Shown here in pieces: positions 21,786 through 59,185 of a stretch of DNA of 59,185 nt; within the stretch, counting starts at the first letter, position 1, and every line of letters starts with the position of its first letter. Under the pieces are notes generated by a model that did not search any database, had not been told where the DNA came from, and worked only from the letters and a program-made list of their open reading frames with translations. Origin of the DNA: Thiomonas sp. X19 (GTDB lineage: Bacteria > Pseudomonadota > Gammaproteobacteria > Burkholderiales > Burkholderiaceae_C); assembly GCF_900089495.1 (NCBI RefSeq), contig NZ_LT605203.1, forward strand, positions 2,500,183-2,559,367, read 5' to 3'. Made by a program: the position numbers and the translations under genes.

Positions 21786-22382
21786 TCAAAGCGTGGTCAC
21801 GAACGCCTCTGGAGCCGGTCGAATCCGTGCCGCCTTGGCTGATTTGACCGTGCCGACAACCACGAAGCAAACAGCCTGCTCGTTGCCGCCAAGGCCGAAC
21901 AGTGCCCGCAGCGCTTGGGAATTCATCGCCTGCCCACTCACGAGGCCCGCACCGAAGCCTTGGGCATGCACGGCCAGCAGCATGTTCTGCAGCGCGCTCC
22001 CCAACGACACCAGGCGCTCCGACACGGGAATCTCGGGATGATCATCCTGCGTGCGCGCGATGGCCAGGGCCAGGAACGGCGCGCGCTGCGCCTTGTCGCG
22101 AGCGTCCTGCAATTGCTGCGTCGACGCCGCTGGATCGCGCTCCAGCAAGGCTGCGGCAAACGCCTCTCCAAGACGCGCACGCGCCGCATCCGAAATCTGC
22201 ACGAAGCGCCAAGGCAGAATCAGACCGTGATCTGGCGCCTGGGCCGCGGCATCGAACAACATCCGGATCTGCGGTGATGAGGGGCCTGGCGCCATCAAGC
22301 GCTTCGGGGAGGTTTGTTGGCGCTTGCGAAGCAGTTCGAGCGTCCAATCGATGGTGTCGATTTGATCCATATGGGTGTTCAT
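21786..22382 (-). CDS. Nitroreductase-family flavoprotein (YdjA-like)
   Basis: 198 residues from the ATG at 22382; upstream codons in the same frame belong to a mobA remnant. FMN-dependent NAD(P)H oxidoreductase fold: SSPQIRMLFDAAAQAPDHGL with the early serine, LPWRFVQI, a helix ERLVSLGSALQNMLLAVHAQ and GFGAGLVSGQAMNS, ending with VVVGTVKSAKAARIRP. The single-domain, short form matches the YdjA group. Substrate unknown. It is placed at the edge of the stress block and has no box of its own that I could see. Confidence 0.82.
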   Translation of the reverse strand: MNTHMDQIDTIDWTLELLRKRQQTSPKRLMAPGPSSPQIRMLFDAAAQAPDHGLILPWRFVQISDAARARLGEAFAAALLERDPAASTQQLQDARDKAQRAPFLALAIARTQDDHPEIPVSERLVSLGSALQNMLLAVHAQGFGAGLVSGQAMNSQALRALFGLGGNEQAVCFVVVGTVKSAKAARIRPAPEAFVTTL

Positions 22383-22407
22383 CCAAGGGTTGCTCAAAAT
22401 TCTGGCA

Positions 22408-22644
22408 TCACAAAACCTGTTCAAAATGCCTGCCAAGGGACCATTGAAAGCTGCGGGATCGGCATCGACCACGCAACGGCCGCAAACCTTGATCGAGCCC
22501 TCCCATACGCGATGCGCGCCCACCGGCCAGGATCAAGCCCGTCAAAGCAGAGGCTGGGGTGTGGCGCGCATGCGGCGAGCCCAAACCGGCCGACGGCGTG
22601 GTCAAGGGTCTTGGGCTGGGGAGCCCATCCCGATCGATGTGCAC
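22408..22644 (-). pseudogene. mobA: mobA remnant (molybdenum cofactor guanylyltransferase)
   Basis: About residues 33-60 of this frame read [20 protein letters not shown] and LRPLRGRC, the GTP-binding N-terminus of MobA. A second MobA piece, [18 protein letters not shown], follows in another frame around 22430-22470. The middle of the enzyme is missing, so a deletion and frameshift destroyed the gene. It lies directly behind a truncated moaA and in front of the nitroreductase. Confidence 0.7.
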
Positions 22645-22660
22645 GCTGCTTAGCCGCCGA

Positions 22661-23014
22661 TAACAGGGGCTCGCCGCCCGTCAATCGGATCTTGCGCGCC
22701 CCAAGATCCATGCATGCACGCGCGGCACGGGTGATTTCCTCGAAACTCAACAAATCGCGATGCGCCAGGAATGCATGCTCCTTGCCGAAGACCTCCTTGG
22801 GCATGCAGTAGGTGCAGCGGAAGTTGCAACGGTCGGTGACCGAAATGCGCAGATCCTGCAGGGGACGACCCATCCGATCGGCCAGCAGCCGCGCGGGCTT
22901 CGACGCTTGCTTGGGAACGCTGGGCACGACGCTGGCGTGGCGACAGTCGGCGATGGGAATCGTTCGGCGCGCCACCGGGTGGATGGCCCCGGCTCGGTCG
23001 GTGTTTTCACACAT
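22661..23014 (-). pseudogene. moaA: moaA 5' fragment (GTP 3',8-cyclase)
   Basis: The first 118 residues are MoaA: leader with IPIADCRH, then [20 protein letters not shown] with the radical-SAM cysteines C63, C67 and C70, [19 protein letters not shown] and [12 protein letters not shown]. After this point the frame runs on into unrelated residues; two-thirds of MoaA, including the second 4Fe-4S site and the C-terminal GG, are gone. The gene therefore cannot make active enzyme. Confidence 0.8.
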
Positions 23015-24317: not shown

Positions 24318-25927
24318 CTAGGAGGCTGTCGGACTTGAACCCGAGCGAATCCGATTGATCAGTGCGACGCGTTTTTTTTGACAGCGGCGCGCTGATCGAA
24401 CGCTCTCGATGGTTGGCGAGACACTGTGAGGGCACATGGGGCGGCCTGGGGACTCGGTTTTGGCGTGGTCGGGGCGCACTATTGCCCTCACGCGGCTCGC
24501 AGGACGTGCATGCGCTTGATGTTCCAAGCCATGGTCACCAAGCTCCATTCGCCTTGTGCCTTGGCCAGCCCGCGCATGCTCATCTGGCGCCAACCCATCA
24601 CTTGCTTGATGATGCCGAACACCGGCTCCACTGTCTGCTTGCGCAGGCCGTACAGGGCTCGGCCTGCTTGCGTGCCCAGGCGGTGTGCCATCTGCACGAG
24701 CGGATCCGTCGTCTGGGGCTCGGGCACATCGGGTGCAAAGCGCCCCATCACCGGCGTGTGATGCGACTCCCGCTTGAGCGCCAGCAGCGGCTCGATACCC
24801 GCGTCGTTGCACGCGATCACGTTGGCTTGGCTGAAGAAGCCGTTGTCCGTGATGAGCGTGTGCACCTCGCCCAGCACCGCGGGTAACGCTTGGATCTGCT
24901 GCAGCGTAGGCACAACTTCGCGCTTGTCGTTGGATGCCTGGCTCACATGCTGGGTGATCACCATCATCGTCGCGATGTCCACGCCGGCTTGTGCGTTGTA
25001 GCTTTGCTCGAAGCCCCCACCCGACACGGGCATGATGCGCGACTCTTCATCCGTGAGGTTGACCTGATCGCTGCTCCGGGGGCCGGCCTCTGGCGGCTCA
25101 GGGTCCTTGCCGCGCGGCTTCTTGCCCGCCTCGCGCTGGGCTTGGCGCTTGGCGGTCTTGGCCTCGTACTCCTGCTGCTCGACCTGATGGCGTTCGCTGG
25201 CGCGCTGCTCGATCTTGGCCTTGGCCTGCGCGATTGCGCTCAAGCGATCTGCACGCAGGGCGATCTCCGCCGGCACATCCATGCCGTCGGGTACCGTCGC
25301 GCGGTCGCTGTTCTCTGCCAGCGCCAGCAGCGTTTGTACTTCCTGGCGCAGCTGCGCCTCGATCTTGTTGGCATGAGCCCACGACAAGGCCTTGTGCTTG
25401 CTGGCGTTGGCGTCGATCTTGGTGCCATCCAGCGCGATGTGTCCGAGCTTGAGCAGCTTCATCTCGCGCGCCAGAACCAGCACCTGCACGAACAGTGCCT
25501 CCACCTCCTTCAAGAAGCGGCGGCGGAACGTCGCCAGCGTGTCGTGATCGGGGTGGGTATTGGCCGCAACAAAGCGGAACGCCACCGAGTCGTAGGTCGC
25601 CCGCTCGATCTTGCGGCTGGAGTGCACGCCGTTGGCGTAGCCGTAGATCAGCAGGCCCAGCAGCACCGCCGGATGGTGCGCCGCCGAGCCCCGGCCTGCG
25701 TACTGTCGGGCCAGATCGCCCAGATCAAGCTGCTCGATGACTTCGACCACGAAGCGCGCCAAGTGATCAGTGGGCAGCCATTCGTCCACCGACGGTGGCA
25801 ACAGATATGCGGTGTCTCGGTCAACAGGGACGAAGCGGCTCATCGGCTCGGGCTCTCGGTTGTGCAGCAGCAATTGTCTCGGATAGCGTCTTCATCCGGA
25901 AGACCGCAAAGTCCGACAGTCTCCTAG
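24318..25927 (-). mobile_element. IS1182-family element, copy 1
   Basis: Ends are GAGGCTGTCGGACTT at 24322 and AAGTCCGACAGTCTC ending 25923, inverted repeats with one mismatch, flanked on both sides by CTAG, taken as the duplicated 4-bp target. Holds one transposase gene. An apparently identical copy lies 33,258 bases downstream in the same orientation. Confidence 0.9.
24488..25843 (-). CDS. IS1182-family transposase
   Basis: 451 residues from the ATG at 25843 (MSRFVPVDRDTAYLLPPSV); a TTG start ten codons earlier is possible. DDE enzyme: N-terminal DUF772-like part VDEWLPTDHLARFVVEVIEQ and AVLLGLLIYGYANGVHSSRK, first catalytic Asp in LGHIALDGTKIDANASKH, second in VHTLITDNGFFSQANV, Glu near TVEPVFGIIKQVMGWRQ. 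The insertion between the first and second Asp is charged (AKRQAQREAGKKPRGKDP), typical for the family. Intact. Confidence 0.93.
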   Translation of the reverse strand: MSRFVPVDRDTAYLLPPSVDEWLPTDHLARFVVEVIEQLDLGDLARQYAGRGSAAHHPAVLLGLLIYGYANGVHSSRKIERATYDSVAFRFVAANTHPDHDTLATFRRRFLKEVEALFVQVLVLAREMKLLKLGHIALDGTKIDANASKHKALSWAHANKIEAQLRQEVQTLLALAENSDRATVPDGMDVPAEIALRADRLSAIAQAKAKIEQRASERHQVEQQEYEAKTAKRQAQREAGKKPRGKDPEPPEAGPRSSDQVNLTDEESRIMPVSGGGFEQSYNAQAGVDIATMMVITQHVSQASNDKREVVPTLQQIQALPAVLGEVHTLITDNGFFSQANVIACNDAGIEPLLALKRESHHTPVMGRFAPDVPEPQTTDPLVQMAHRLGTQAGRALYGLRKQTVEPVFGIIKQVMGWRQMSMRGLAKAQGEWSLVTMAWNIKRMHVLRAA

Positions 25928-44347: not shown

Positions 44348-45418
44348 TCAAGCGGCCAGCGCCCCAGGCGCTCCTGACTTGATGCCGACATGGTGCGCAT
44401 CGAACGCTTTCCCCCGGACGAAGACCGCCCACACGATGCGCGCATTCTTGTTGGCCAGCGCAACCACGGCCTTCTGCCAACCCGATTTTTCGCGCAGCCG
44501 GTGCGCCCACTTCGAGATCGGATCATCACGCCGGTGGGCGGTCATCACGGCTGACCTTGCCCCTTGAATCAGCAAGGTGCGCAAATAGGGCTCACCGCGT
44601 TTGGTGATCGCCCCCAGAGTGGCCTTGCCTCCACTGGAGCGTTGTCGCGGCACCAGCCCCAGCCACGCGCCAAACTGGGCACCGTTCTTGAACTGCTTGA
44701 AATCCCCCACCGTGGCCACCAGGGCCGATGCCGTCACGGGCCCGACGCCGAGGAGCTTCTCGGCCTGACGCACCGGCTCACTTGCTTTCAGATGGGCGGC
44801 AATGCGTTCGTCACACCAGGCCAGATGGGCATCAAGTTCCCGCCACTGCCCCCAAGCCCGCTGCAGCGCCAATCGCGCCAGACCGCCCAGTTCATTGCTG
44901 GCGTCCTCGATGACATCAAGTAAACCCCGGAGCAGCTCTGTGGGATTTTGCGCAAACACGAGACCAAACTCAGCCAGCAGGCCACGAATGCGGTTGATGC
45001 ATGCGGTGCGCTCGGTCTTGAAACCCTCACGCAGGCGGTGGATGCACAGCATGCTTTGTTGCTCGACGCTTTTGACGGGAACGAAATGCATGTGGGGCCG
45101 ACTGGCTGCTTCGCAGATGGCGGCAGCGTCATTGGCGTCGTTCTTTCCGCTCTTGCCCTGCACACGGTAGGGCTCGACCAAATGCGCGGCGATGATGCGC
45201 GCATCCAGACCGAGGGCGATGAGTCGACGCGCCCAGTGATGTGCACCGGAACTGGCTTCCATGGCGACCACGCAGCCTGGCGGTAACTGCGCGCACCACG
45301 CCATGAACTTGTCGCGCGGGAGTGCCAGACTGGTGATGCGGTTTCCAATCGCATCCACTGCGTGAACCTGGATGATGCGCTTTGCCAAATCAACGCCGAC
45401 TCGTGTCATCGTGCTCAT
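44348..45418 (-). CDS. IS110-family transposase
   Basis: 356 residues, intact. DEDD-type N-terminal domain: RVGVDLAKRIIQVHAVD (Asp), VVAMEASSGAHHWARRL (Glu), KSGKNDANDAAAICEAASRP (Asp, Asp). C-terminal half: LLGVGPVTASALVATVGDFK and FGAWLGLVPRQRSSGGKATL, with the conserved serine region. It differs from the window-edge copy (1-1156) across its whole length. Inserted between two IS3 remnants. Confidence 0.92.
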   Translation of the reverse strand: MSTMTRVGVDLAKRIIQVHAVDAIGNRITSLALPRDKFMAWCAQLPPGCVVAMEASSGAHHWARRLIALGLDARIIAAHLVEPYRVQGKSGKNDANDAAAICEAASRPHMHFVPVKSVEQQSMLCIHRLREGFKTERTACINRIRGLLAEFGLVFAQNPTELLRGLLDVIEDASNELGGLARLALQRAWGQWRELDAHLAWCDERIAAHLKASEPVRQAEKLLGVGPVTASALVATVGDFKQFKNGAQFGAWLGLVPRQRSSGGKATLGAITKRGEPYLRTLLIQGARSAVMTAHRRDDPISKWAHRLREKSGWQKAVVALANKNARIVWAVFVRGKAFDAHHVGIKSGAPGALAA

Positions 45419-45441
45419 GGGGATCTTCCTTTCAAGTGGTT

Positions 45442-45768
45442 TCAGAATGACTTCCGCTGGTCAATCCTCGCAGCGAATGCCATGGCCGCATCGTGGGAAG
45501 TCCCTTCGTATTCATTCTCCAGCGTCAGCTGCCCGATCTTGGCGTGCAGCGACTTCATGTCCACGGTCGGTGCCGCACTTGGCGCTGCGCTCGTGCCGAA
45601 CACGTCGTAGGCGCGCTCCAGCAGTTGCCGGCGCCACTCGCTGACCTGGGTGGGATGAACCTCGAACTGCTGCGCGATCTCGGCGATCGTCTTGTCGTCC
45701 TTCATCGCCGCCAAGGCCACTTTGGCCTTGAACGCCGGTGAGTGATTGCGACGGGTCCTCTTGCTCAT
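45442..45768 (-). pseudogene. Third IS3 OrfA, truncated
   Basis: From the ATG at 45768: SKRTRRNHSPAFKAKVALAA, MKDDKTIAEIAQQFEVHPTQ and VDMKSLHAKIGQLTLENE, the IS3 OrfA helix-turn-helix; after LTLENE the frame runs into unrelated residues and orfB is missing. The sequence before it (CGAATTCGCCCGACAGAACA-type leader) is usual for this IS group. Truncation is at the IS110 insertion. Confidence 0.75.
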
Positions 45769-45894
45769 GTCTGCTCCTGTTCTGTCGGGCGAATTCCTCG
45801 CCCTTGGGAGCAGCCTATCCACTTATCCCCGTGTTCAGTTTCGCCGAGCCACCTCTCTACGCAAGCCAACACGACAAAACAAGGTTTGAATTTC

Positions 45895-47103
45895 CTATGC
45901 GCAGCGCCCGTCCTGGAATTCGTTGGACAGGCTGGTGCGCAAGGCCTTGGCGCAATAGAAGGCTTCGAAGCCATTGCGATGGTTGATCTGGGCCAGCCCG
46001 TGGAAGAAGCGGATGACGGTTTCCTTGGTCGGCGGGTCGCAGTCGAGCCGGCTTCCCTCGTCCACGTGCAGCACATTGGCGCTAGAGGCGATGCCGTGCC
46101 CGGCCAGTTCCTCGCACAGCGCTAGCAATTCGTCCACCGGTTCCAGGCCCAGCACGAAATTGGTCCAGGACTTGCCGCGGCCGAACACGGTGGCGGCGTG
46201 CTTGAGCCGATCGATGAAGAAATCACGGCCCAGTGCACTCTTGCCGGGGCAGTACTTGCTGAACCAGGGGTCGTTGCCCACCTCCAGATTGAACACCACG
46301 ATGGCCACGCCGGCCTGCTTGAGCTTGTCCAGCCGACCCAGGTCGTGTGGCGGCGTGATGACGGCGACGATGCCCTCGGTGCTCTTTGGCGCGACCTGGT
46401 CCTTGATGTGAGCGGCGATGTCGCAATAGATGTCGGCTTGGTCGTCGAGCTGGTCGTCCGGCAGGTTGCCCGAGATCAGGATCACGTGCATGTGCTCCGA
46501 ATAACACTCGGCCTGCAGCGCCAGCTCGATCGATTCCGACAGGTTGCCCAGGTAGGATGCTCGCGCCGCTTCCCAGCCCAGGGCGCCGGGCTGCAAGTGC
46601 GCCGCGTGCAAGGCGTCGCTGGGATTTTTCACGGCCACGCTGTTGACGCCGCAAAACCGGCAGACGCTGGAAATGAGGCAGCCCTTCCAGGGAATGATGT
46701 TGAGTTCGTCATAGCCGCAGGCCGAAATGTACTTCTGGGCCGGGTCGCCGCTGGCCAGGCGCTGCGCATAATACTTCGGCTGCTTGACGAAGCTGACCTT
46801 GACGCAGTCGCTGGCGGCCTGTTCGCCGATGCGGCATACCAGCTCGCCCGAAGCCGCCACGTCTACGGTGACGGGTTCACGCTTGCCGTGGGCCGACACG
46901 CAGGAGACCACGGTGCGATAACCGTCCTCGCCCTCCAGGAACAATTCCTGCGGCCGCTCCCGGGCAAAGCCCTTGGGGGCGTTGTAGACGAGGTTCTGGC
47001 CCTTGGCACCCATGCGCGCGGCGCAGTCGATCGCGGCGGGAGTGAATACCACTCCGCGCGTGAGGATCTCGGCCTTCAACTCGGTTTCAGGTGAAAGGAT
47101 CAT
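45895..47103 (-). CDS. Radical-SAM protein with CX5CX2C motif
   Basis: 402 residues from the ATG at 47103, which overlaps the glycosyltransferase stop by 4 nt; a much longer open frame upstream is only antisense overlap. The probable cluster motif is WKGCLISSVCRFCGVNSV (C142, C148, C151), a CX5CX2C variant of the usual CX3CX2C. Later parts fit a TIM barrel: HMHVILISGNLPDD, GIVAVITPPHDLG, GVAIVVFNLEVGNDPWFSKY and VLGLEPVDELLALCEELAGH. Reaction unknown. Last gene of the sugar-type cluster. Confidence 0.75.
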   Translation of the reverse strand: MILSPETELKAEILTRGVVFTPAAIDCAARMGAKGQNLVYNAPKGFARERPQELFLEGEDGYRTVVSCVSAHGKREPVTVDVAASGELVCRIGEQAASDCVKVSFVKQPKYYAQRLASGDPAQKYISACGYDELNIIPWKGCLISSVCRFCGVNSVAVKNPSDALHAAHLQPGALGWEAARASYLGNLSESIELALQAECYSEHMHVILISGNLPDDQLDDQADIYCDIAAHIKDQVAPKSTEGIVAVITPPHDLGRLDKLKQAGVAIVVFNLEVGNDPWFSKYCPGKSALGRDFFIDRLKHAATVFGRGKSWTNFVLGLEPVDELLALCEELAGHGIASSANVLHVDEGSRLDCDPPTKETVIRFFHGLAQINHRNGFEAFYCAKALRTSLSNEFQDGRCA

Positions 47104-48032
47104 GGTTTGACGTAAAAGAAATGGAGCCACCATCCCACATGGAATAGCGGGAACAGGATCGGGTAAGCAAGCGCCGCGCCCAGCGCTTGCGGGCGGCGCC
47201 GGGCGATGGCCAGCGCGAGTGCGCCCAGCCAGCCGGCGCAGGCAAGCGGCGCCTGCGGCGCCAGTGCCGCCAGCGCCACCACGTGGAGGATGGGTAGCAG
47301 GTGATAACAAAAGGCGTGGATCCACAGCAGCCGGCGGTCCTGGCGGGTCAGGGTGGCGCAGGACAAGGACTGGCGAAAGCCCGTGGCCCAGCGCGAGCGC
47401 TGCTTCCACAGCGCCGCGAATGAGTAAAACGGTAACTCGAAGGCCACCACTTCCTGCGCATAGTGATAGCGCAGGCGATGCTTGGCCGCGTGCAGGCCGA
47501 TGGAGAGGTCATCGAGGAATGTATCCGTGCCCGGCAGCCTGCCCTGGAAGCTGGCCGCCTTGAGCAGGAAACACTGGCCGGGAATCGTCACCCCGAGGTG
47601 CAGGCGCCACAGCGCGGGCCGCAGCACGGTGTGGGAAAGCAGCTTGTCCACTTCCACCAGGCGCGAGATGAAACTCGACACCCTGCGCGAATGGATCCGG
47701 CCCCAGCCCAGGTCGAAATCGCCATCCACGGTCTGTGCGACCAGGCGCAGCAGGCTGGGGATGTCGGCGGCGATGTCGTTGTCCAGGCTCAGCAGGTAGC
47801 GATGGCCGGTACCCTGCAATGCATGCAGCAGCTTGCGGTACTTGGTTCCCTGGACATGGGTGACGCGGATGGGGAAGTCAGAGCCCGGCGCAGGCACCGG
47901 CCCCGTCGATTCCACGTACAGCTCCATGACCAGGTCGGGGTAGCGCCGGTGCAACTGGTTGCCGATGTCGATCAGTTCTGGCGTCAACCGTTCCTGGCCG
48001 CGCAGGTAGGTAACGATGGCCAGTTCAGGCAT
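47100..48032 (-). CDS. Family-2 glycosyltransferase with QxxRW motif
   Basis: 310 residues from the ATG at 48032. GT-A fold with LSLDNDIAADIPSLLRL (DxD-like), TFLDDLSIGLHAAKHR (base region) and WKQRSRWATGFRQSL (QxxRW, as in NodC, cellulose and hyaluronan synthases). The C-terminus has two to three membrane helices (FCYHLLPILHVVALAALAPQ and the last 40 residues). It should add sugars from a UDP donor at the inner membrane. Overlaps the carbamoyltransferase end by 8 nt. Confidence 0.82.
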   Translation of the reverse strand: MPELAIVTYLRGQERLTPELIDIGNQLHRRYPDLVMELYVESTGPVPAPGSDFPIRVTHVQGTKYRKLLHALQGTGHRYLLSLDNDIAADIPSLLRLVAQTVDGDFDLGWGRIHSRRVSSFISRLVEVDKLLSHTVLRPALWRLHLGVTIPGQCFLLKAASFQGRLPGTDTFLDDLSIGLHAAKHRLRYHYAQEVVAFELPFYSFAALWKQRSRWATGFRQSLSCATLTRQDRRLLWIHAFCYHLLPILHVVALAALAPQAPLACAGWLGALALAIARRRPQALGAALAYPILFPLFHVGWWLHFFYVKP

Positions 48033-49592
48033 GCACGTCCTCCACCGCGCCGTGCGCATAGAGATGATCCAGGCCGATGGCGGCGGCGCAGGCGCGGGCC
48101 TGGGCGAGCGTTTCCACGATGGGCTCGTCACGACCATTGAAGGAGGTGTTGAGCAGCACCACGTGGCCGGTCAGGCCCTCATAGGCGGCCAGGACCTGGT
48201 GCAACAGGCAGCCATCTTCTTCCACCACCTGCAGCCGGACGGTGCCATCGACGTGGGCTAGCGCCGGATAGCAGGCGCGAGACGTATCGGTCATCCGCGC
48301 TGCCGACAGCATGTTGGGCCCGGCCAGGGCGTCGCCGGTGATCTGGTCCAGATTGGCGCGCAGCACGATGCCACCGAAGGGACGGAAGGATTCGCGGCGC
48401 TTGATCTGGGCGTTGAGCCGGGTCTTCAAGGCCAGGTCGGCCGCCGACGACAGGATGGAGCGGTAGCCCAGCGCGCGCGGGCCGAATTCCGAGCCGCCCT
48501 GGAACACGCCCACGGTGTGGCCGTCGGCCAGCAAGCGGGCAAGCGCCTGTGCAGCCTGCGCCCCTTGCGCCATCGGCGCTGCATAAGAGGCGCCCTGGCT
48601 CACCCGGTATACGATGGGGCGGTAGTCGCCGAAGGTCTCGCGCAGGGCCATCACGGCAGCCCCCACCGAAAGGCCGTCGTCGCCTGCGGCGGGGAAAATG
48701 TTCACCGAGCGCAGCCAGGCGGCGTTGACCAGCAAGCCATTGTTCCTGCAGTTCAGCGCCACGCCGCCGCCCAGCAGCAGATCCCGGCACTGGTGGGCCT
48801 GCGCCAGTTGCTGCGTGCGAAAGGCCAGGTAAGCTTCCAGGCCCTGCTGGATCGCGTCTGCCAGGTCGGCCGCCAGCGGCGTGTCCCAGTCGATATGGTC
48901 GGGACAGGCTTGCAGGAAGGCCAGCCAGTCCGGGTTGACGCCGAACGCCTGATCCCGGCCGAAGCGCAGCGGCGCGGGAATGCCGTGCGTGCGCGTGGCC
49001 AGCGCGGCCAGCGCCATGACCTTGCCGGCCGCATGGGAGGAGCCGAAGATCTTCTTGCTGACTGCGGCGTAGGCATAGCCCAGGCTGTCGATGTGGCTGC
49101 CCCAAGGGTAGCGCTTGTTGTAATAGGGGCGGTAGGTTTTTTCCAGCGCGGTGAGCCTGCCGTCTTCATGGCGGTAGACGGACTCAACCTCGAACAAACC
49201 CGGATTCATCCCGGCCACGCCGTTGTCTTCGGGGCGGCATCCGCGGCCGTCGGCGACTAGCACCAGGGCTGGTCCGGCCGGCGCCATCACACTGGCCGCG
49301 TAGGCGTGCAGCAGATGATGGCGCCGCGTCCTTTCCACGCGGGCAAACCGGCAATAGCGATCCTCGCGCAAGCCGTGGCATCGTGCCAGTCGCTGCACAC
49401 CAGCAGGTCGATGTCGGCCGGCGCCAGCCCGAAATGCGTCAGCAGGTAATCGACGCACTCGACTGGGTCGCCCTGATCGTGCTTCCTGCGGGTCAGCCGC
49501 TCGCGGGCGATGGCGCCGACCACGACATTGTCCACCAGCAGGCAGGCCGAGGCGTCGTGGCCGCTATGCAGGCCGATGATGCGAGTGCTCAT
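48025..49592 (-). pseudogene. Carbamoyltransferase (NodU/CmcH type), one frameshift
   Basis: The start frame has STRIIGLHSGHDASACLLVD and VVGAIARERLTRRKHDQG; near 49325 it breaks in the middle of the metal motif and continues in another frame as HHLLHAYAASVM, ALVLVADGRG, LLLGGGVALNCRNNGLLVNA, VGVFQGGSEFGPRALGYRSI and HVVLLNTSFNGRDEPIVETL. Together about 522 codons, slightly short for the family. The enzymes move a carbamoyl group from carbamoyl-phosphate through carbamoyl-AMP to a hydroxyl of a sugar or antibiotic. A single indel at GGCGCC could be a real mutation or a sequence error. Confidence 0.82.
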
Positions 49593-50249
49593 CCGAAATT
49601 TCGCTCGAATCCGCCAGGCCGAGGTTCAATAACTGGCGAGTGTTTTCAATCACATCGGGGCAATGGAAGGCCTGGATCAACCCGTTCATCGCCTGGCCCA
49701 GGCGCTCGCGGGGAATGACGATCTTTTCCGCTAGGCGGTCCCGGTTGTCGTTCTTGTAGGCGATCAGGTCTTGCAGCGCCGCACGGGCGCAGGGCGCCAG
49801 CGGTAGGATCGTGGCCGGCCGATGTCACCCCGGTATCGGCAAGCTGCGGCGTAGGCCGCATGCCAGGGGTAGCCGCCGTACAGGCCGCAGATCAGCCGGG
49901 GCGTCAGTTCGCGCGTGATGGGCTCGCCCACCGTCCAGCGCTGGCGCAATGCCTCCTGCAGCTGCGGCACGATATGGCCATGGGCGGGATGCACGAAGAC
50001 GAAGGATTTGCCGGCCGCGTGCCGGGTTTCGAACGACTGGAAAGCCGCCAGTCCGAAGCGATGCATGATGATCTGCGGCACCACGCGCCACAGCGGATCG
50101 TCCAAGTCGCCGTCGATGGCGGCCAGGTCGTCCAGCTTTTCGATGGCGCGCAGGCGGCGCGCCAGTTCGGCTGGCGTCGGGACGCCGTCCAGCAGGGTGA
50201 AACAGCCGGACAGCAGATGGGGCAGTTCTTCGGTATCAGTCATGGACAT
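49564..50249 (-). pseudogene. Unrecognised cluster protein, one frameshift
   Basis: N-terminal frame: HLLSGCFTLLDGVPTPAELA, HRFGLAAFQSFETRHAAGKS, FVFVHPAHGHIVPQLQEALR, LICGLYGGYPWHAAYAAACR. Near 49815 it shifts to ILPLAPCARAALQDLIAYKN, DNRDRLAEKIVIPRERLGQA and ends in the carbamoyltransferase start. The layout faintly resembles nucleoside-diphosphate-kinase folds (FVFVHP early, GGYPWHAAYAA as the helix before an active site), but the catalytic NxxH is not seen. Start at 50249 has AAGGTGAG upstream. Confidence 0.55.
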
Positions 50250-51363
50250 CGATGCTCACCTTGTCATCCAGAGCTTGCGCAATGGCCGCTGCATCGTCCA
50301 GGTCACGGGCCGCGAAGCAGATCTCGGCGATCCTGGCGTTAGTGCTGCAGATGTTTTCCGACAGCAAGTCGCCGGCTTGTTTGTGGACCGTCACCTGGTA
50401 CGCGTGCGGCAACCGGCAGGCAAAGTTCGCCAGGCGGCCGGGGCGCCGCGCCAGCACATTCTTCTGCACCGTGAACGGCGCGAAAGACGGCGTGCTCCCG
50501 GCCAGTGCCAGGGCGGCATAGCTGGCAATGCCCGAGAATCGCTTGATCGCGCCCAGGCCGCTGCCGATGCGGCAGGAAAAATCTACCGCGACGGCGCGCC
50601 CGTCGACAACGATGAAGTCGAACTGACCGAAGCTAGTGCAACCGGCGCTGTACAGGGCCGCACACCAGTCGTGGATGGCTGCACACAAGGCAGGGTCCTG
50701 CGGCACGGCGATGTAACTGTCGCACACCGGCCGCCCGCCGATCCAGGCGACGATCTTGCGAAACAGGCGCAGCACGACCGGCCGGCCCTGGTGCACGAAC
50801 ACGTCGGCGCTGTATTCCTCGCCGTCCAGGTAGTCTTCCACCACCACCCGGGCGGCATCCTCGTCGAGCACGGCGCGCATGATTCGGCCGGCGTCGGCTT
50901 GCACCAGCCGGGCGATCGCCATGGGGTCGAAGCGCCCCGCTTCGGCGTGGCGCACGATGCCATAGCCGGAATAGGCCGCATCCAGCCGGGCCAGGTAGCG
51001 ATCGGGATAAGGCGTGGCGACGTCTTCTAGGTAGCGCCGCGGCAAGCTATGCAGGCCGCATGCAGCGAGCCGAGCGGAGAGGTCGTGCTTTGAGCGGCTG
51101 GCGCGCAGCGCGTGCGGTGCAATATTGGCCACGCCGGCCCGGATCGCCCGGCTCACCCAGAATTCATTGAGCGGGATCACGGGCGCGCGGATTTGCGGGA
51201 TGTCCTCGCTGCAGGTCACTAGCGCACGGTGCTGCGTCGGAATGTGCTCCGACATCGCCGCGTTTTCCAGGAGCAGCACTGTCATGCCGGCATGCGTGGC
51301 CACCGCCACGAACTGCGGGATGTCCTCGATCGAGGAGGCGCCCGCCACCACATAGTCGAGCAT
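50236..51363 (-). CDS. ATP-grasp enzyme
   Basis: 375 residues. Central ATP-grasp features: SRSKHDLSARLAACGLHSLP, VVVEDYLDGEEYSADVFVHQ, LRLFRKIVAWIGGRPVCDSY and GQFDFIVVDGRAVAVDFSCR with IGSGLGAIKRFSGI. The family ligates a carboxylate to an amine through an acyl-phosphate. Substrates unknown; in this cluster it may attach an amino acid to a sugar amine. Its first 200 nt overlap the epimerase frame and its end overlaps the next gene by 14 nt. Confidence 0.82.
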   Translation of the reverse strand: MLDYVVAGASSIEDIPQFVAVATHAGMTVLLLENAAMSEHIPTQHRALVTCSEDIPQIRAPVIPLNEFWVSRAIRAGVANIAPHALRASRSKHDLSARLAACGLHSLPRRYLEDVATPYPDRYLARLDAAYSGYGIVRHAEAGRFDPMAIARLVQADAGRIMRAVLDEDAARVVVEDYLDGEEYSADVFVHQGRPVVLRLFRKIVAWIGGRPVCDSYIAVPQDPALCAAIHDWCAALYSAGCTSFGQFDFIVVDGRAVAVDFSCRIGSGLGAIKRFSGIASYAALALAGSTPSFAPFTVQKNVLARRPGRLANFACRLPHAYQVTVHKQAGDLLSENICSTNARIAEICFAARDLDDAAAIAQALDDKVSIDVHD

Positions 51364-52306
51364 GGCTATGCTCCTGCGTTTGCGCGAAGAATGCGGCCGT
51401 CTTCAACAAACCCGCCTCCAGCGGCGTGGTGGTTTGCCAGCCCAGCACGCGGCGGCACTTTTCCAGGTCGGGCTGGCGCTCCCGCGGGTCGTCGACCAAG
51501 GCTGGAGCATAGTGCAAGGTGACCGGTTTTTCCAGCACCAGGCCGACCAGATGCGCCAGTTGGGCGACCGACACTTCGCGGTCCGCCCCCAGGTTCACGG
51601 GCGTGGCACAGTCGCTGGCCATGAGGGCGATCAAGGCCTCGACCATGTCGTCCACGTAACAGAAGCAACGCGTCTGACGGCCGTCACCGTAGATCTCGAT
51701 AGGCGCGCCGTCGAGGATGCGGGTAACGAAATTGCTCACCACGCGGCCGTCATCGCGTTGCATACCGGGCCCGTAGGTATTGAAGATGCGCGCGATGCGC
51801 GTATCCATCTGGTACTGCGTTTGATAGGCCTGGACGAGTGCCTCGGCACATCGCTTGCCTTCGTCATAACAGGCGCGCGGGCCGATGGTGTTGACGTTGC
51901 CCCAGTAGTCTTCGCGCTGGGGTTTCTGTTGGGGGCTGCCATAGACCTCACTGGTCGACGCCAGGAGAAAACGGGCGCAGGTAAGCCGGGCGAGGTCCAG
52001 CAGGTTGCGCGTACCGATGATATTGGTTTCGATGGTCTTGACCGGGGCTTGCTGGTATTGCCGCGGCGAGGCCGGGCAGGCCAGGTTGTAGACCTGCTCG
52101 ACCGGGCCCACCGGGGCGGAATCCAGCGGCTGCGCGATGTCCTGATGGAGAAAGGTGAAGCCCGCGAACGCGCGCAGCCGGTCGACCGCTTGCGCGCTGC
52201 CGGTCTGCAACGAATCGACACACACCACCGCGTGTCCCAGCCCGAGTAATTTTTCGCACAAGGCGGCCCCGATGAACCCCGCCCCGCCGGCAACTAAGAT
52301 GCGCAC
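51164..52306 (-). CDS. UDP-glucuronate decarboxylase-like epimerase
   Basis: Start is a GTG at 52306 (GTGCGCATCTTAGTTGCC). Extended SDR: GGAGFIGAALCEKL, VYNLACPASPRQYQQAPVKT, LLASTSEVYGSPQ, GNVNTIGPRACYDEGKRCAE with YDEGK catalytic Tyr/Lys, and IYGDGRQTRCFCYVDDMV. The pattern GNVNxIGPRxCYDEGKR points to UDP-xylose synthase. Normal proteins end about residue 314, where the ATP-grasp gene starts; here the frame continues 66 codons into it, so a 3' indel probably removed the stop. First gene of the cluster, 25 nt after an IS5 remnant. Confidence 0.85.
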   Translation of the reverse strand: MRILVAGGAGFIGAALCEKLLGLGHAVVCVDSLQTGSAQAVDRLRAFAGFTFLHQDIAQPLDSAPVGPVEQVYNLACPASPRQYQQAPVKTIETNIIGTRNLLDLARLTCARFLLASTSEVYGSPQQKPQREDYWGNVNTIGPRACYDEGKRCAEALVQAYQTQYQMDTRIARIFNTYGPGMQRDDGRVVSNFVTRILDGAPIEIYGDGRQTRCFCYVDDMVEALIALMASDCATPVNLGADREVSVAQLAHLVGLVLEKPVTLHYAPALVDDPRERQPDLEKCRRVLGWQTTTPLEAGLLKTAAFFAQTQEHSHARLCGGGRLLDRGHPAVRGGGHACRHDSAAPGKRGDVGAHSDAAPCASDLQRGHPANPRARDPAQ

Positions 52307-52331
52307 GATCCCGATCCCTGATGATGCTTTG

Positions 52332-52670
52332 TTACGAATGTTGTTGCTGCCCGCACGAGGTGTCCTCGGTGGACAGCCCGATGAACCAGCGGAACAGAAG
52401 GTTGTAGGAGATCTGCTCAACTAGCTGGCGCTCGCTGCGGATGCTGTAGAGCACCTGCAACAGCATCGCACGCATCAGCTTCTCCGGCGCGATGCTCGGG
52501 CGCCCGCCCTTCACGTCAGCCTCGTACATCGCCGAGAACTTCGCGCCCATCTTCGCCAGCGCCTCGTTCATCCACTTGCGGATCGGGCGCAGCGGATGCG
52601 TCTGGGGCACGAACTCCTCCAACTTCACCGTGCTGAACAGCGCCTCGTTGTAGCTGTCGGCTCCTCGCAT
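52332..52670 (-). pseudogene. IS5-type transposase N-terminal fragment
   Basis: RGADSYNEALFSTVKLEEFV, PQTHPLRPIRKWMNEALAKM, FSAMYEADVKGGRPSIAPEK and LLFRWFIGLSTED, then unrelated residues. This is the DUF772 N-terminal part; the DDE domain is gone. It lies just upstream of the sugar cluster, so the cluster's natural promoter and any first genes may have been deleted. Confidence 0.82.
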
Positions 52671-57596: not shown

Positions 57597-59185
57597 ACCC
57601 GAGCGAATCCGATTGATCAGTGCGACGCGTTTTTTTTGACAGCGGCGCGCTGATCGAACGCTCTCGATGGTTGGCGAGACACTGTGAGGGCACATGGGGC
57701 GGCCTGGGGACTCGGTTTTGGCGTGGTCGGGGCGCACTATTGCCCTCACGCGGCTCGCAGGACGTGCATGCGCTTGATGTTCCAAGCCATGGTCACCAAG
57801 CTCCATTCGCCTTGTGCCTTGGCCAGCCCGCGCATGCTCATCTGGCGCCAACCCATCACTTGCTTGATGATGCCGAACACCGGCTCCACTGTCTGCTTGC
57901 GCAGGCCGTACAGGGCTCGGCCTGCTTGCGTGCCCAGGCGGTGTGCCATCTGCACGAGCGGATCCGTCGTCTGGGGCTCGGGCACATCGGGTGCAAAGCG
58001 CCCCATCACCGGCGTGTGATGCGACTCCCGCTTGAGCGCCAGCAGCGGCTCGATACCCGCGTCGTTGCACGCGATCACGTTGGCTTGGCTGAAGAAGCCG
58101 TTGTCCGTGATGAGCGTGTGCACCTCGCCCAGCACCGCGGGTAACGCTTGGATCTGCTGCAGCGTAGGCACAACTTCGCGCTTGTCGTTGGATGCCTGGC
58201 TCACATGCTGGGTGATCACCATCATCGTCGCGATGTCCACGCCGGCTTGTGCGTTGTAGCTTTGCTCGAAGCCCCCACCCGACACGGGCATGATGCGCGA
58301 CTCTTCATCCGTGAGGTTGACCTGATCGCTGCTCCGGGGGCCGGCCTCTGGCGGCTCAGGGTCCTTGCCGCGCGGCTTCTTGCCCGCCTCGCGCTGGGCT
58401 TGGCGCTTGGCGGTCTTGGCCTCGTACTCCTGCTGCTCGACCTGATGGCGTTCGCTGGCGCGCTGCTCGATCTTGGCCTTGGCCTGCGCGATTGCGCTCA
58501 AGCGATCTGCACGCAGGGCGATCTCCGCCGGCACATCCATGCCGTCGGGTACCGTCGCGCGGTCGCTGTTCTCTGCCAGCGCCAGCAGCGTTTGTACTTC
58601 CTGGCGCAGCTGCGCCTCGATCTTGTTGGCATGAGCCCACGACAAGGCCTTGTGCTTGCTGGCGTTGGCGTCGATCTTGGTGCCATCCAGCGCGATGTGT
58701 CCGAGCTTGAGCAGCTTCATCTCGCGCGCCAGAACCAGCACCTGCACGAACAGTGCCTCCACCTCCTTCAAGAAGCGGCGGCGGAACGTCGCCAGCGTGT
58801 CGTGATCGGGGTGGGTATTGGCCGCAACAAAGCGGAACGCCACCGAGTCGTAGGTCGCCCGCTCGATCTTGCGGCTGGAGTGCACGCCGTTGGCGTAGCC
58901 GTAGATCAGCAGGCCCAGCAGCACCGCCGGATGGTGCGCCGCCGAGCCCCGGCCTGCGTACTGTCGGGCCAGATCGCCCAGATCAAGCTGCTCGATGACT
59001 TCGACCACGAAGCGCGCCAAGTGATCAGTGGGCAGCCATTCGTCCACCGACGGTGGCAACAGATATGCGGTGTCTCGGTCAACAGGGACGAAGCGGCTCA
59101 TCGGCTCGGGCTCTCGGTTGTGCAGCAGCAATTGTCTCGGATAGCGTCTTCATCCGGAAGACCGCAAAGTCCGACAGTCTCCTAG
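57576..59185 (-). mobile_element. IS1182-family element, copy 2
   Basis: Offset 33,258 from copy 1; reads the same in every frame I compared. CTAG at 57576-57579, inverted repeats, and CTAG ending at the last base of the window. It disrupts the nitronate-monooxygenase-like gene. Confidence 0.9.
57746..59101 (-). CDS. IS1182-family transposase, copy 2
   Basis: Same 451-residue product as at 24488-25843, with all three catalytic regions (LDGTKIDAN, ITDNGFF, TVEPVFGIIK). No difference was seen between the two translations, so one is a recent duplicate of the other or both arrived recently. Confidence 0.93.
   Translation of the reverse strand: MSRFVPVDRDTAYLLPPSVDEWLPTDHLARFVVEVIEQLDLGDLARQYAGRGSAAHHPAVLLGLLIYGYANGVHSSRKIERATYDSVAFRFVAANTHPDHDTLATFRRRFLKEVEALFVQVLVLAREMKLLKLGHIALDGTKIDANASKHKALSWAHANKIEAQLRQEVQTLLALAENSDRATVPDGMDVPAEIALRADRLSAIAQAKAKIEQRASERHQVEQQEYEAKTAKRQAQREAGKKPRGKDPEPPEAGPRSSDQVNLTDEESRIMPVSGGGFEQSYNAQAGVDIATMMVITQHVSQASNDKREVVPTLQQIQALPAVLGEVHTLITDNGFFSQANVIACNDAGIEPLLALKRESHHTPVMGRFAPDVPEPQTTDPLVQMAHRLGTQAGRALYGLRKQTVEPVFGIIKQVMGWRQMSMRGLAKAQGEWSLVTMAWNIKRMHVLRAA

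Follow-up and report, generated by a model that had tools for sequence, protein, structure and literature searches.

NodU-type carbamoyltransferases decorate glycans such as Nod factors, and in prokaryotic viperin systems a radical S-adenosylmethionine (SAM) enzyme stands next to a kinase-fold protein, the nucleotide kinase. Radical SAM proteins of the MSMEG_0568 type occur in nitrilase Nit1C-type clusters. HcgA, of [Fe]-hydrogenase cofactor synthesis, carries a CX5CX2C motif, which is called unique to it among radical SAM enzymes in one source (PMC10100467). Here a block of six genes from Thiomonas sp. X19 is compared with these systems. It lies in a stretch of 59,185 nucleotides (contig NZ_LT605203.1, positions 2,500,183 to 2,559,367), hereafter the window. 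The operon type to which it belongs is composed of five core genes, usually with a carbamoyltransferase gene and, in two copies, with a seventh gene (gene 7). The explanation which we favour, and which we hold with about even confidence, is a rare, horizontally transferred biosynthetic operon making a small xylose-containing compound or a glycolipid. The features of the block and its edges are as follows (ORF, open reading frame; IS, insertion sequence; UXS, UDP-xylose synthase; NDK, nucleoside diphosphate kinase; GT2, glycosyltransferase family 2).

51164–52306, minus strand: UDP-glucuronate decarboxylase (UXS)-like gene, overrunning its usual stop by about 64 codons (Pfam Epimerase).
50236–51363, minus strand: ATP-grasp ligase-like gene, frame intact (Pfam ATP-grasp_4, E 7.6e-6, slightly under the cut-off).
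49570–50249, minus strand: gene of a predicted NDK-fold protein, in two frames (50249–49764 and about 49824–49570).
48025–49592, minus strand: NodU/TobZ-type O-carbamoyltransferase gene, in two frames (49592–49287 and 49458–48025; Pfam Carbam_trans_N and Carbam_trans_C).
47100–48032, minus strand: GT2 glycosyltransferase of 310 amino acids (aa) with a hydrophobic C-terminal segment (Pfam Glyco_trans_2_3, 4.7e-11).
45895–47103, minus strand: variant radical SAM protein of 402 aa with a CX5CX2C motif (NF045502).
52332–52670, minus strand: ORF fragment at the cluster edge, in the place of gene 7 of two relatives (ORF call and end of homology to the Burkholderia relative).
44348–45822, minus strand: IS-like ORFs at the other edge (same evidence).

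The ORF calls agree with the first-pass annotation, which had described six minus-strand genes with overlapping or touching ends between 45895 and 52306, and its family names for the UXS/epimerase, NodU-type carbamoyltransferase, GT2 and radical SAM genes were borne out by Pfam and NCBIfam profiles. Window positions 45859–52361 aligned with Burkholderia sp. BCC1644 (locus L001) over 6,510 bp at 93.6% identity. The alignment stops at 45859 and 52361, with IS-like ORFs at both ends. IS remnants had been claimed for both edges; IS-like ORFs do flank the block on either side, while their identity as transposases is our assumption. We take the 52332–52670 fragment to be a transposase-like N-terminus, and the ORFs at 44348–45822 are presumably IS110-like and IS3-like. 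The unit has a G+C content of 65% in the window, compared with 64% in BCC1644 (flanks 59%), 48% in the Acetobacter locus and 54% in the first part of the Zoogloea locus. The ratio of nonsynonymous to synonymous substitution (dN/dS) between window and BCC1644 was 0.08–0.38 for eight gene pieces, which argues that the window genes were under selection until recently.

Searching genome contigs with the glycosyltransferase (GT) yielded three loci, namely L001, L002 of Acetobacter suratthaniensis and L003 of Zoogloea oleivorans, and a fourth relative, G1341 (locus L049), was found among 398 genomes of the family of BCC1644. BCC1644 and G1341 possess intact copies of all six genes, arranged as in the window, and in BCC1644 the intergenic gaps are -8, -17, -29, -8 and -4 bases. 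Acetobacter has five of the six genes in order, with undamaged frames, and lacks the carbamoyltransferase. Zoogloea also keeps five in order, with the UXS gene ended by the contig end and the GT gene broken by an inserted ORF which we take to be transposase-like. Protein identities range from 59% (NDK-like protein, L001 against L002) to 97% (radical SAM, window against L001). Between L001 and L049, seven genes including gene 7 have dN/dS values of 0.07–0.26 and no stops, and they are under purifying selection. The proposal that at least four of the families should be found together elsewhere therefore held, four genomes carrying five or six of them in unchanged order. Homologues at the protein level also came from Burkholderia gladioli, Comamonas testosteroni, Janthinobacterium, Paraburkholderia, Vibrio campbellii, Aliivibrio and Psychrobacter. 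The split genes and the IS-like ORFs on both sides of the window block would also fit an accidental assortment of unconnected genes in a decaying stretch rich in IS elements. Such an origin is nevertheless highly improbable, in view of the order kept in four other genomes at protein identities of about 59–97%, the purifying selection, and the homologues of different cluster genes on shared contigs; the six-gene block is far beyond chance.

The cassette is rare and patchy in its spread, and most likely horizontally transferred. None of 12 genomes of the same genus scored above the NF045502 cut-off, and only the genome of the window itself was found by the NDK-like query in the order sample (1 of 399), by the GT query in the phylum sample (1 of 398) and by the radical SAM query in the class sample (1 of 369). 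The family of BCC1644 gave two genomes in 398, BCC1644 included, and its genus only BCC1644 itself (1 of 65). Linkage in metagenomes was assessed by comparing the homologue lists for longest contigs of identical size. Of 39 NDK-like clusters whose contigs measure 5 kb or more, 31 match a GT or radical SAM homologue in this size, and 16 sizes are common to all three lists, against a chance expectation of 0.2–0.4 matches per pair of lists. Of 25 GT matches with at most 52% identity, 11 match a listed radical SAM and only one an NDK-like protein; either the GT–radical SAM pair thus extends to more distant relatives than the NDK-like protein does, or the NDK-like protein becomes too divergent to be detected. 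The radical SAM protein is paired with the same kind of GT down to about 35% GT identity. Among 78 more distant radical SAM proteins of those listed (the best 120 of 334 homologues with E ≤ 0.001 among 7,995 candidates scored), only seven match a GT or NDK-like protein, so most of the wider family may lie elsewhere. Viral contigs held no relative of the NDK-like protein, radical SAM, GT or gene 7, and one partial phage match had 32% identity over 30% of the query. Plasmids gave no match to the GT. The radical SAM protein matched 21 plasmid records at only 22–26% identity, of which 11 carry an MSMEG_0568 family annotation, and the two records inspected (Agrobacterium, Rahnella) had other gene sets. 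Distant blastn of the Acetobacter radical SAM gene gave no match in E. coli.

Two features elsewhere in the window are reported for completeness. The ORFs at 24488–25873 and 57746–59131 are both 461 aa long with equal composition and identical first 70 residues, and probably represent the same IS present twice at a distance of 33 kb. A composite transposon bounded by this pair was considered and rejected, as it spans far more than the cluster. At 21786–23014 the ORF is only 197 aa long and the next ORF is in a different frame, possibly a split gene; its N-terminus is presumably MoaA-like.

The identification of the first gene as UDP-xylose-synthase-like was upheld by a close match to UDP-glucuronate decarboxylase. 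The L001 orthologue had human UXS1 (PDB 4gll) as its best PDB match over the full length (E 3e-96), with the next class at 1e-37, far above other epimerases of the short-chain dehydrogenase/reductase type. E120, Y147xxxK151, R213 and R277, which we presume to have functional roles, are kept in three cluster copies and in the human UXS1 alignment, where YDEGK and QTR are conserved. The cluster protein differs from human UXS1 in being encoded in a mobile operon. Genes of the UDP-glucose/GDP-mannose dehydrogenase family were above cut-off in all four host genomes, which fits the presumed supply of UDP-xylose. An activated pentose and a carbamoyl step, as first proposed, are consistent with the profiles. 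For the second gene the ATP-grasp call is borderline: Pfam ATP-grasp_4 matched with E 7.6e-6 at 26.1 bits, just under the cut-off of 27. Its relatives weakly match carbamoyl-phosphate-synthase-like and PurD models.

The third protein had been listed as unrecognised. This stands as far as names are concerned, with no Pfam or NCBIfam match in the window, and it does not stand for the fold, as structure comparison recognised an NDK fold. The protein is predicted to have this fold on the basis of VIA-align 2, in which 49 of 50 rows were NDKs, and of a predicted model. It differs from NDKs in its identity of only 7–14% and in extra N-terminal helices. The Pfam NDK model matched one of 20 members (E 0.019) and did not match the L001 protein at E 1. 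An invariant FHCPD precedes a helix, and hhalign pairs it, at only 0.2% probability, with VHGSD, which corresponds to the active-site His motif (xHGSD) of NDKs.

The radical SAM protein of the window belongs to the radical SAM superfamily by NF045502 (157.8 bits, cut-off 125), and scored under the cut-off of Pfam Radical_SAM (22.4 against 29.5). The canonical CX3CX2C is absent and CX5CX2C is present in all 24 aligned sequences, with C142, C148 and C151 invariant together with a further Cys129. This motif is shared with HcgA, whose gene context is different. Two relatives were scanned and both weakly matched lipoyl synthase LipS2 (E 1e-4 and 1e-3), and the window protein had no LipS2 match at 0.001. 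A profile search of the PDB with the radical SAM alignment gave nothing convincing. The MSMEG_0568-type proteins share the NCBIfam domain NF045502; the cluster protein differs in reaching only 56.4 of the 303.7 bits of the TIGR04043 cut-off, and no nitrilase gene is present in the unit. At one other locus (L011) the ORF before the radical SAM gene is presumably a nitrilase.

The carbamoyltransferase is a member of the NodU/TobZ O-carbamoyltransferases, with Carbam_trans_N on both window pieces and Carbam_trans_C at 2e-46, and it is intact in L001 (522 aa) and L049. Both domains are common to NodU, TobZ and GdmN, and PDB matches were decarbamoylnovobiocin carbamoyltransferase (1e-40) and TobZ (3e-38). 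Of the two fragments of the split window gene, the larger one reached 112.7 bits, below the 1000-bit cut-off of the NCBIfam NodU equivalog. The setting differs from that of the Nod-factor NodU, as Pfam and NCBIfam recognised no NodA/B/C-type Nod-factor genes among the cluster genes. Neither the Acetobacter nor the Zoogloea genome had a carbamoyltransferase match. In Zoogloea, the space that separates the NDK-like gene from the GT gene holds a 43-residue likeness to the N-terminus (40%, E 2e-6, two short stretches searched), and in Acetobacter a 22-residue likeness (E 0.8) is merely suggestive. From the Zoogloea remnant and the Acetobacter absence, the gene was probably ancestral and lost in some copies. 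It is an optional part of the cassette. The carbamoylated pathway that the first-pass annotation had proposed would accordingly hold for some copies, and not for that of Acetobacter, where the gene is absent, or of Zoogloea, where a remnant is left.

The GT carries DNDI, TFLDD and QRxRWA-type motifs, whose residues are invariant or nearly so in 23 sequences. It has one clear hydrophobic segment and a distant relation to cellulose synthase (E 9e-4). A GT2 with such a segment is compatible with the part of the earlier proposal that a sugar is transferred at the membrane. The case for polymerisation is weak, given a protein of 310 aa with no NCBIfam match for the window copy and this E value for cellulose synthase. 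The same protein bears on a tentative alternative, a cassette for cell-surface glycan modification, in which the GT2 would put the pentose of UDP-xylose on a lipid or envelope glycan and amide and carbamoyl decorations would change phage or other receptors. The hydrophobic C-terminal segment, the cellulose synthase relation, the glycan decoration known of NodU-type enzymes and carriage on a mobile island in BCC1644 are in its favour. Against it, none of the genes in the unit was recognised as a flippase, polymerase or ligase, and to our knowledge an NDK-fold protein and a radical SAM enzyme are not usual in glycan-modification cassettes.

Gene 7, which stands immediately upstream of UXS in L001 (3355–4677), is an ORF of 440 aa, and G1341 has a 78% relative at the same position (dN/dS 0.26). 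Searches of L002, L003 and L032 did not find it, although the Zoogloea contig breaks off within UXS; it is thus no universal part of the cassette. Neither copy had a Pfam match at 0.001, and the L001 copy had no NCBIfam match at 0.01. Distant relatives (23–26%) were present in nine plasmid records, and the three records inspected lacked the other cluster genes. Orphan relatives lie on large Pseudomonas and Klebsiella plasmids, and in two Pseudomonas regions inspected a phospholipase D-family gene was a few genes away.

Three of the six window genes are altered compared with the relatives. The carbamoyltransferase gene is split, the pieces of the NDK-like gene correspond to residues 1–149 and 144–228 of an intact relative, and the UXS frame extends about 64 codons beyond the stop point of L001, L002, L003 and G1341. 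Gene 7 is absent at the IS-like boundary, where the IS-like fragment begins in its place. As judged from the sequence, the window copy is probably non-functional and decaying. Sequencing error may be the source of the split genes, though the genome was scored 99.99% complete, which speaks against poor quality.

In BCC1644 the unit lies on an island after gyrB with Dnd/Dpt genes, TnsA/TniB/TniQ-like genes and PDC-M61A (2.5e-198); the gene order was read from sequence and the core genes around the island carry names that we assume. The dptFGH, dndEDCB-like and TnsA/TniB/TniQ-like genes were observed at L033 10306–19729 and L029 1062–14323, and a 260-aa protein just past the cluster (L001 11322–12104) has a weak proteasome-like match (E 0.03). 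PADLOC gave a JukA match in L002 (3e-56) and an MkoA-like match in L003 (5e-71). Beside the JukA-like gene and directly before UXS, L002 1931–3163 encodes a 410-aa coiled-coil-like protein. On visual inspection alone, the end of this protein looks like a PIN/NYN nuclease; Pfam gave no match at 0.001. In Zoogloea L003 6248–13911, a ClpB-like ATPase, a PIN protein, an MkoA-like helicase and a small radical SAM protein with a weak viperin match stand in a row, possibly forming a separate defence operon. The G1341 unit adjoins an ankyrin-repeat ORF and genes which we take to be of flagellar type. PADLOC-type defence genes are thus near three of the four relatives, with the flanks of G1341 and of the window outside the PADLOC scan.

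These neighbours bear on a further possibility, which we regard as doubtful: a dedicated anti-phage system, analogous to the prokaryotic viperins paired with nucleotide kinases, with a modified nucleotide or a glycoside as its product. In its favour are the JukA, MkoA-like and PDC-M61A matches beside three of the relatives, the Dnd/Dpt genes of the BCC1644 island, and the presence of a radical SAM protein and an NDK fold in one operon. At E ≤ 1e-20, matches were found for four of 11 chosen near-flank proteins (gene 7 being one of the seven misses) and six of 14 farther proteins on the BCC1644 island. As control, 80 proteins were scanned, drawn from six stretches of 20 kb each in the genomes of these three relatives (83 called, three ORFs at stretch ends dropped), and 11 models each matched one of them. 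Since these are counts of models, the matched proteins number six if six HEC-01A models share one, and at most 11. The near-flank set, on the other hand, is small and non-random, with ParB, a recombinase and some other ORFs left unscanned; one of its four matches, the ClpB-like ATPase, may be of housekeeping type, and neither of two farther Zoogloea proteins matched. Neither gene 7 nor any of the six cluster proteins had a PADLOC 2.0 match at E 0.01. The prokaryotic viperin systems differ in their radical SAM family, and the cluster has added sugar and ligase genes. Moreover, the unit of the fourth relative has flagellar-type genes on one side and ankyrin-type ORFs on the other, and mobile islands bring together many cargoes that have no relation to each other. 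That the BCC1644 unit sits on an island is observed; a defence role is not.

In the favoured biosynthetic reading, the UXS enzyme would convert UDP-glucuronate of the host into UDP-xylose, as its family suggests, and the ATP-grasp enzyme, from its weak profile match, may join a carboxylate to an amine. The radical SAM enzyme would remodel the acceptor. The NDK-fold protein may move phosphate through a conserved His or may be repurposed, the GT2 would transfer the pentose at the membrane, and in some copies the NodU-type enzyme would O-carbamoylate the product. The cassette would travel self-contained, and the advantage to the host would probably be chemical competition or defence. Several points weigh against this reading. 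None of the genes in the unit was recognised as coding for an exporter, a regulator or self-resistance, whereas antibiotic clusters usually have such genes, and no product class can be named. The ATP-grasp assignment is weak, with no convincing solved relative in a profile search of the PDB (best E 0.32), and the NDK profile comparison covered only 13 columns at 0.2% probability. Gene 7 was not found at L002 or L003/L032 (the latter with a contig end inside UXS), and the Zoogloea copy is damaged. In the window copy two genes are split, one has lost its stop, and gene 7 is missing. The small-molecule or glycolipid, surface-glycan and anti-phage readings overlap. A mobile chemical-defence cassette of a new class, in which the CX5CX2C radical SAM enzyme and an NDK-fold phosphotransferase would build an unusual phosphorylated or nucleotide-like acceptor, to be xylosylated by the GT2 at the membrane and carbamoylated by a detachable NodU-type enzyme into an anti-phage or anti-competitor compound, is an unlikely further reading.

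A keyword search of open-licence PMC papers gave none describing this cluster in the text covered by it, and the combination of known enzyme families is undescribed as far as our searches show. Unknown chemistry may be encoded by self-contained orphan operons that are exchanged among distantly related proteobacteria and in part reside on islands carrying defence genes. The present one contains an NDK-fold protein that neither Pfam nor NCBIfam names, and with intact copies identified, its product can be sought directly.

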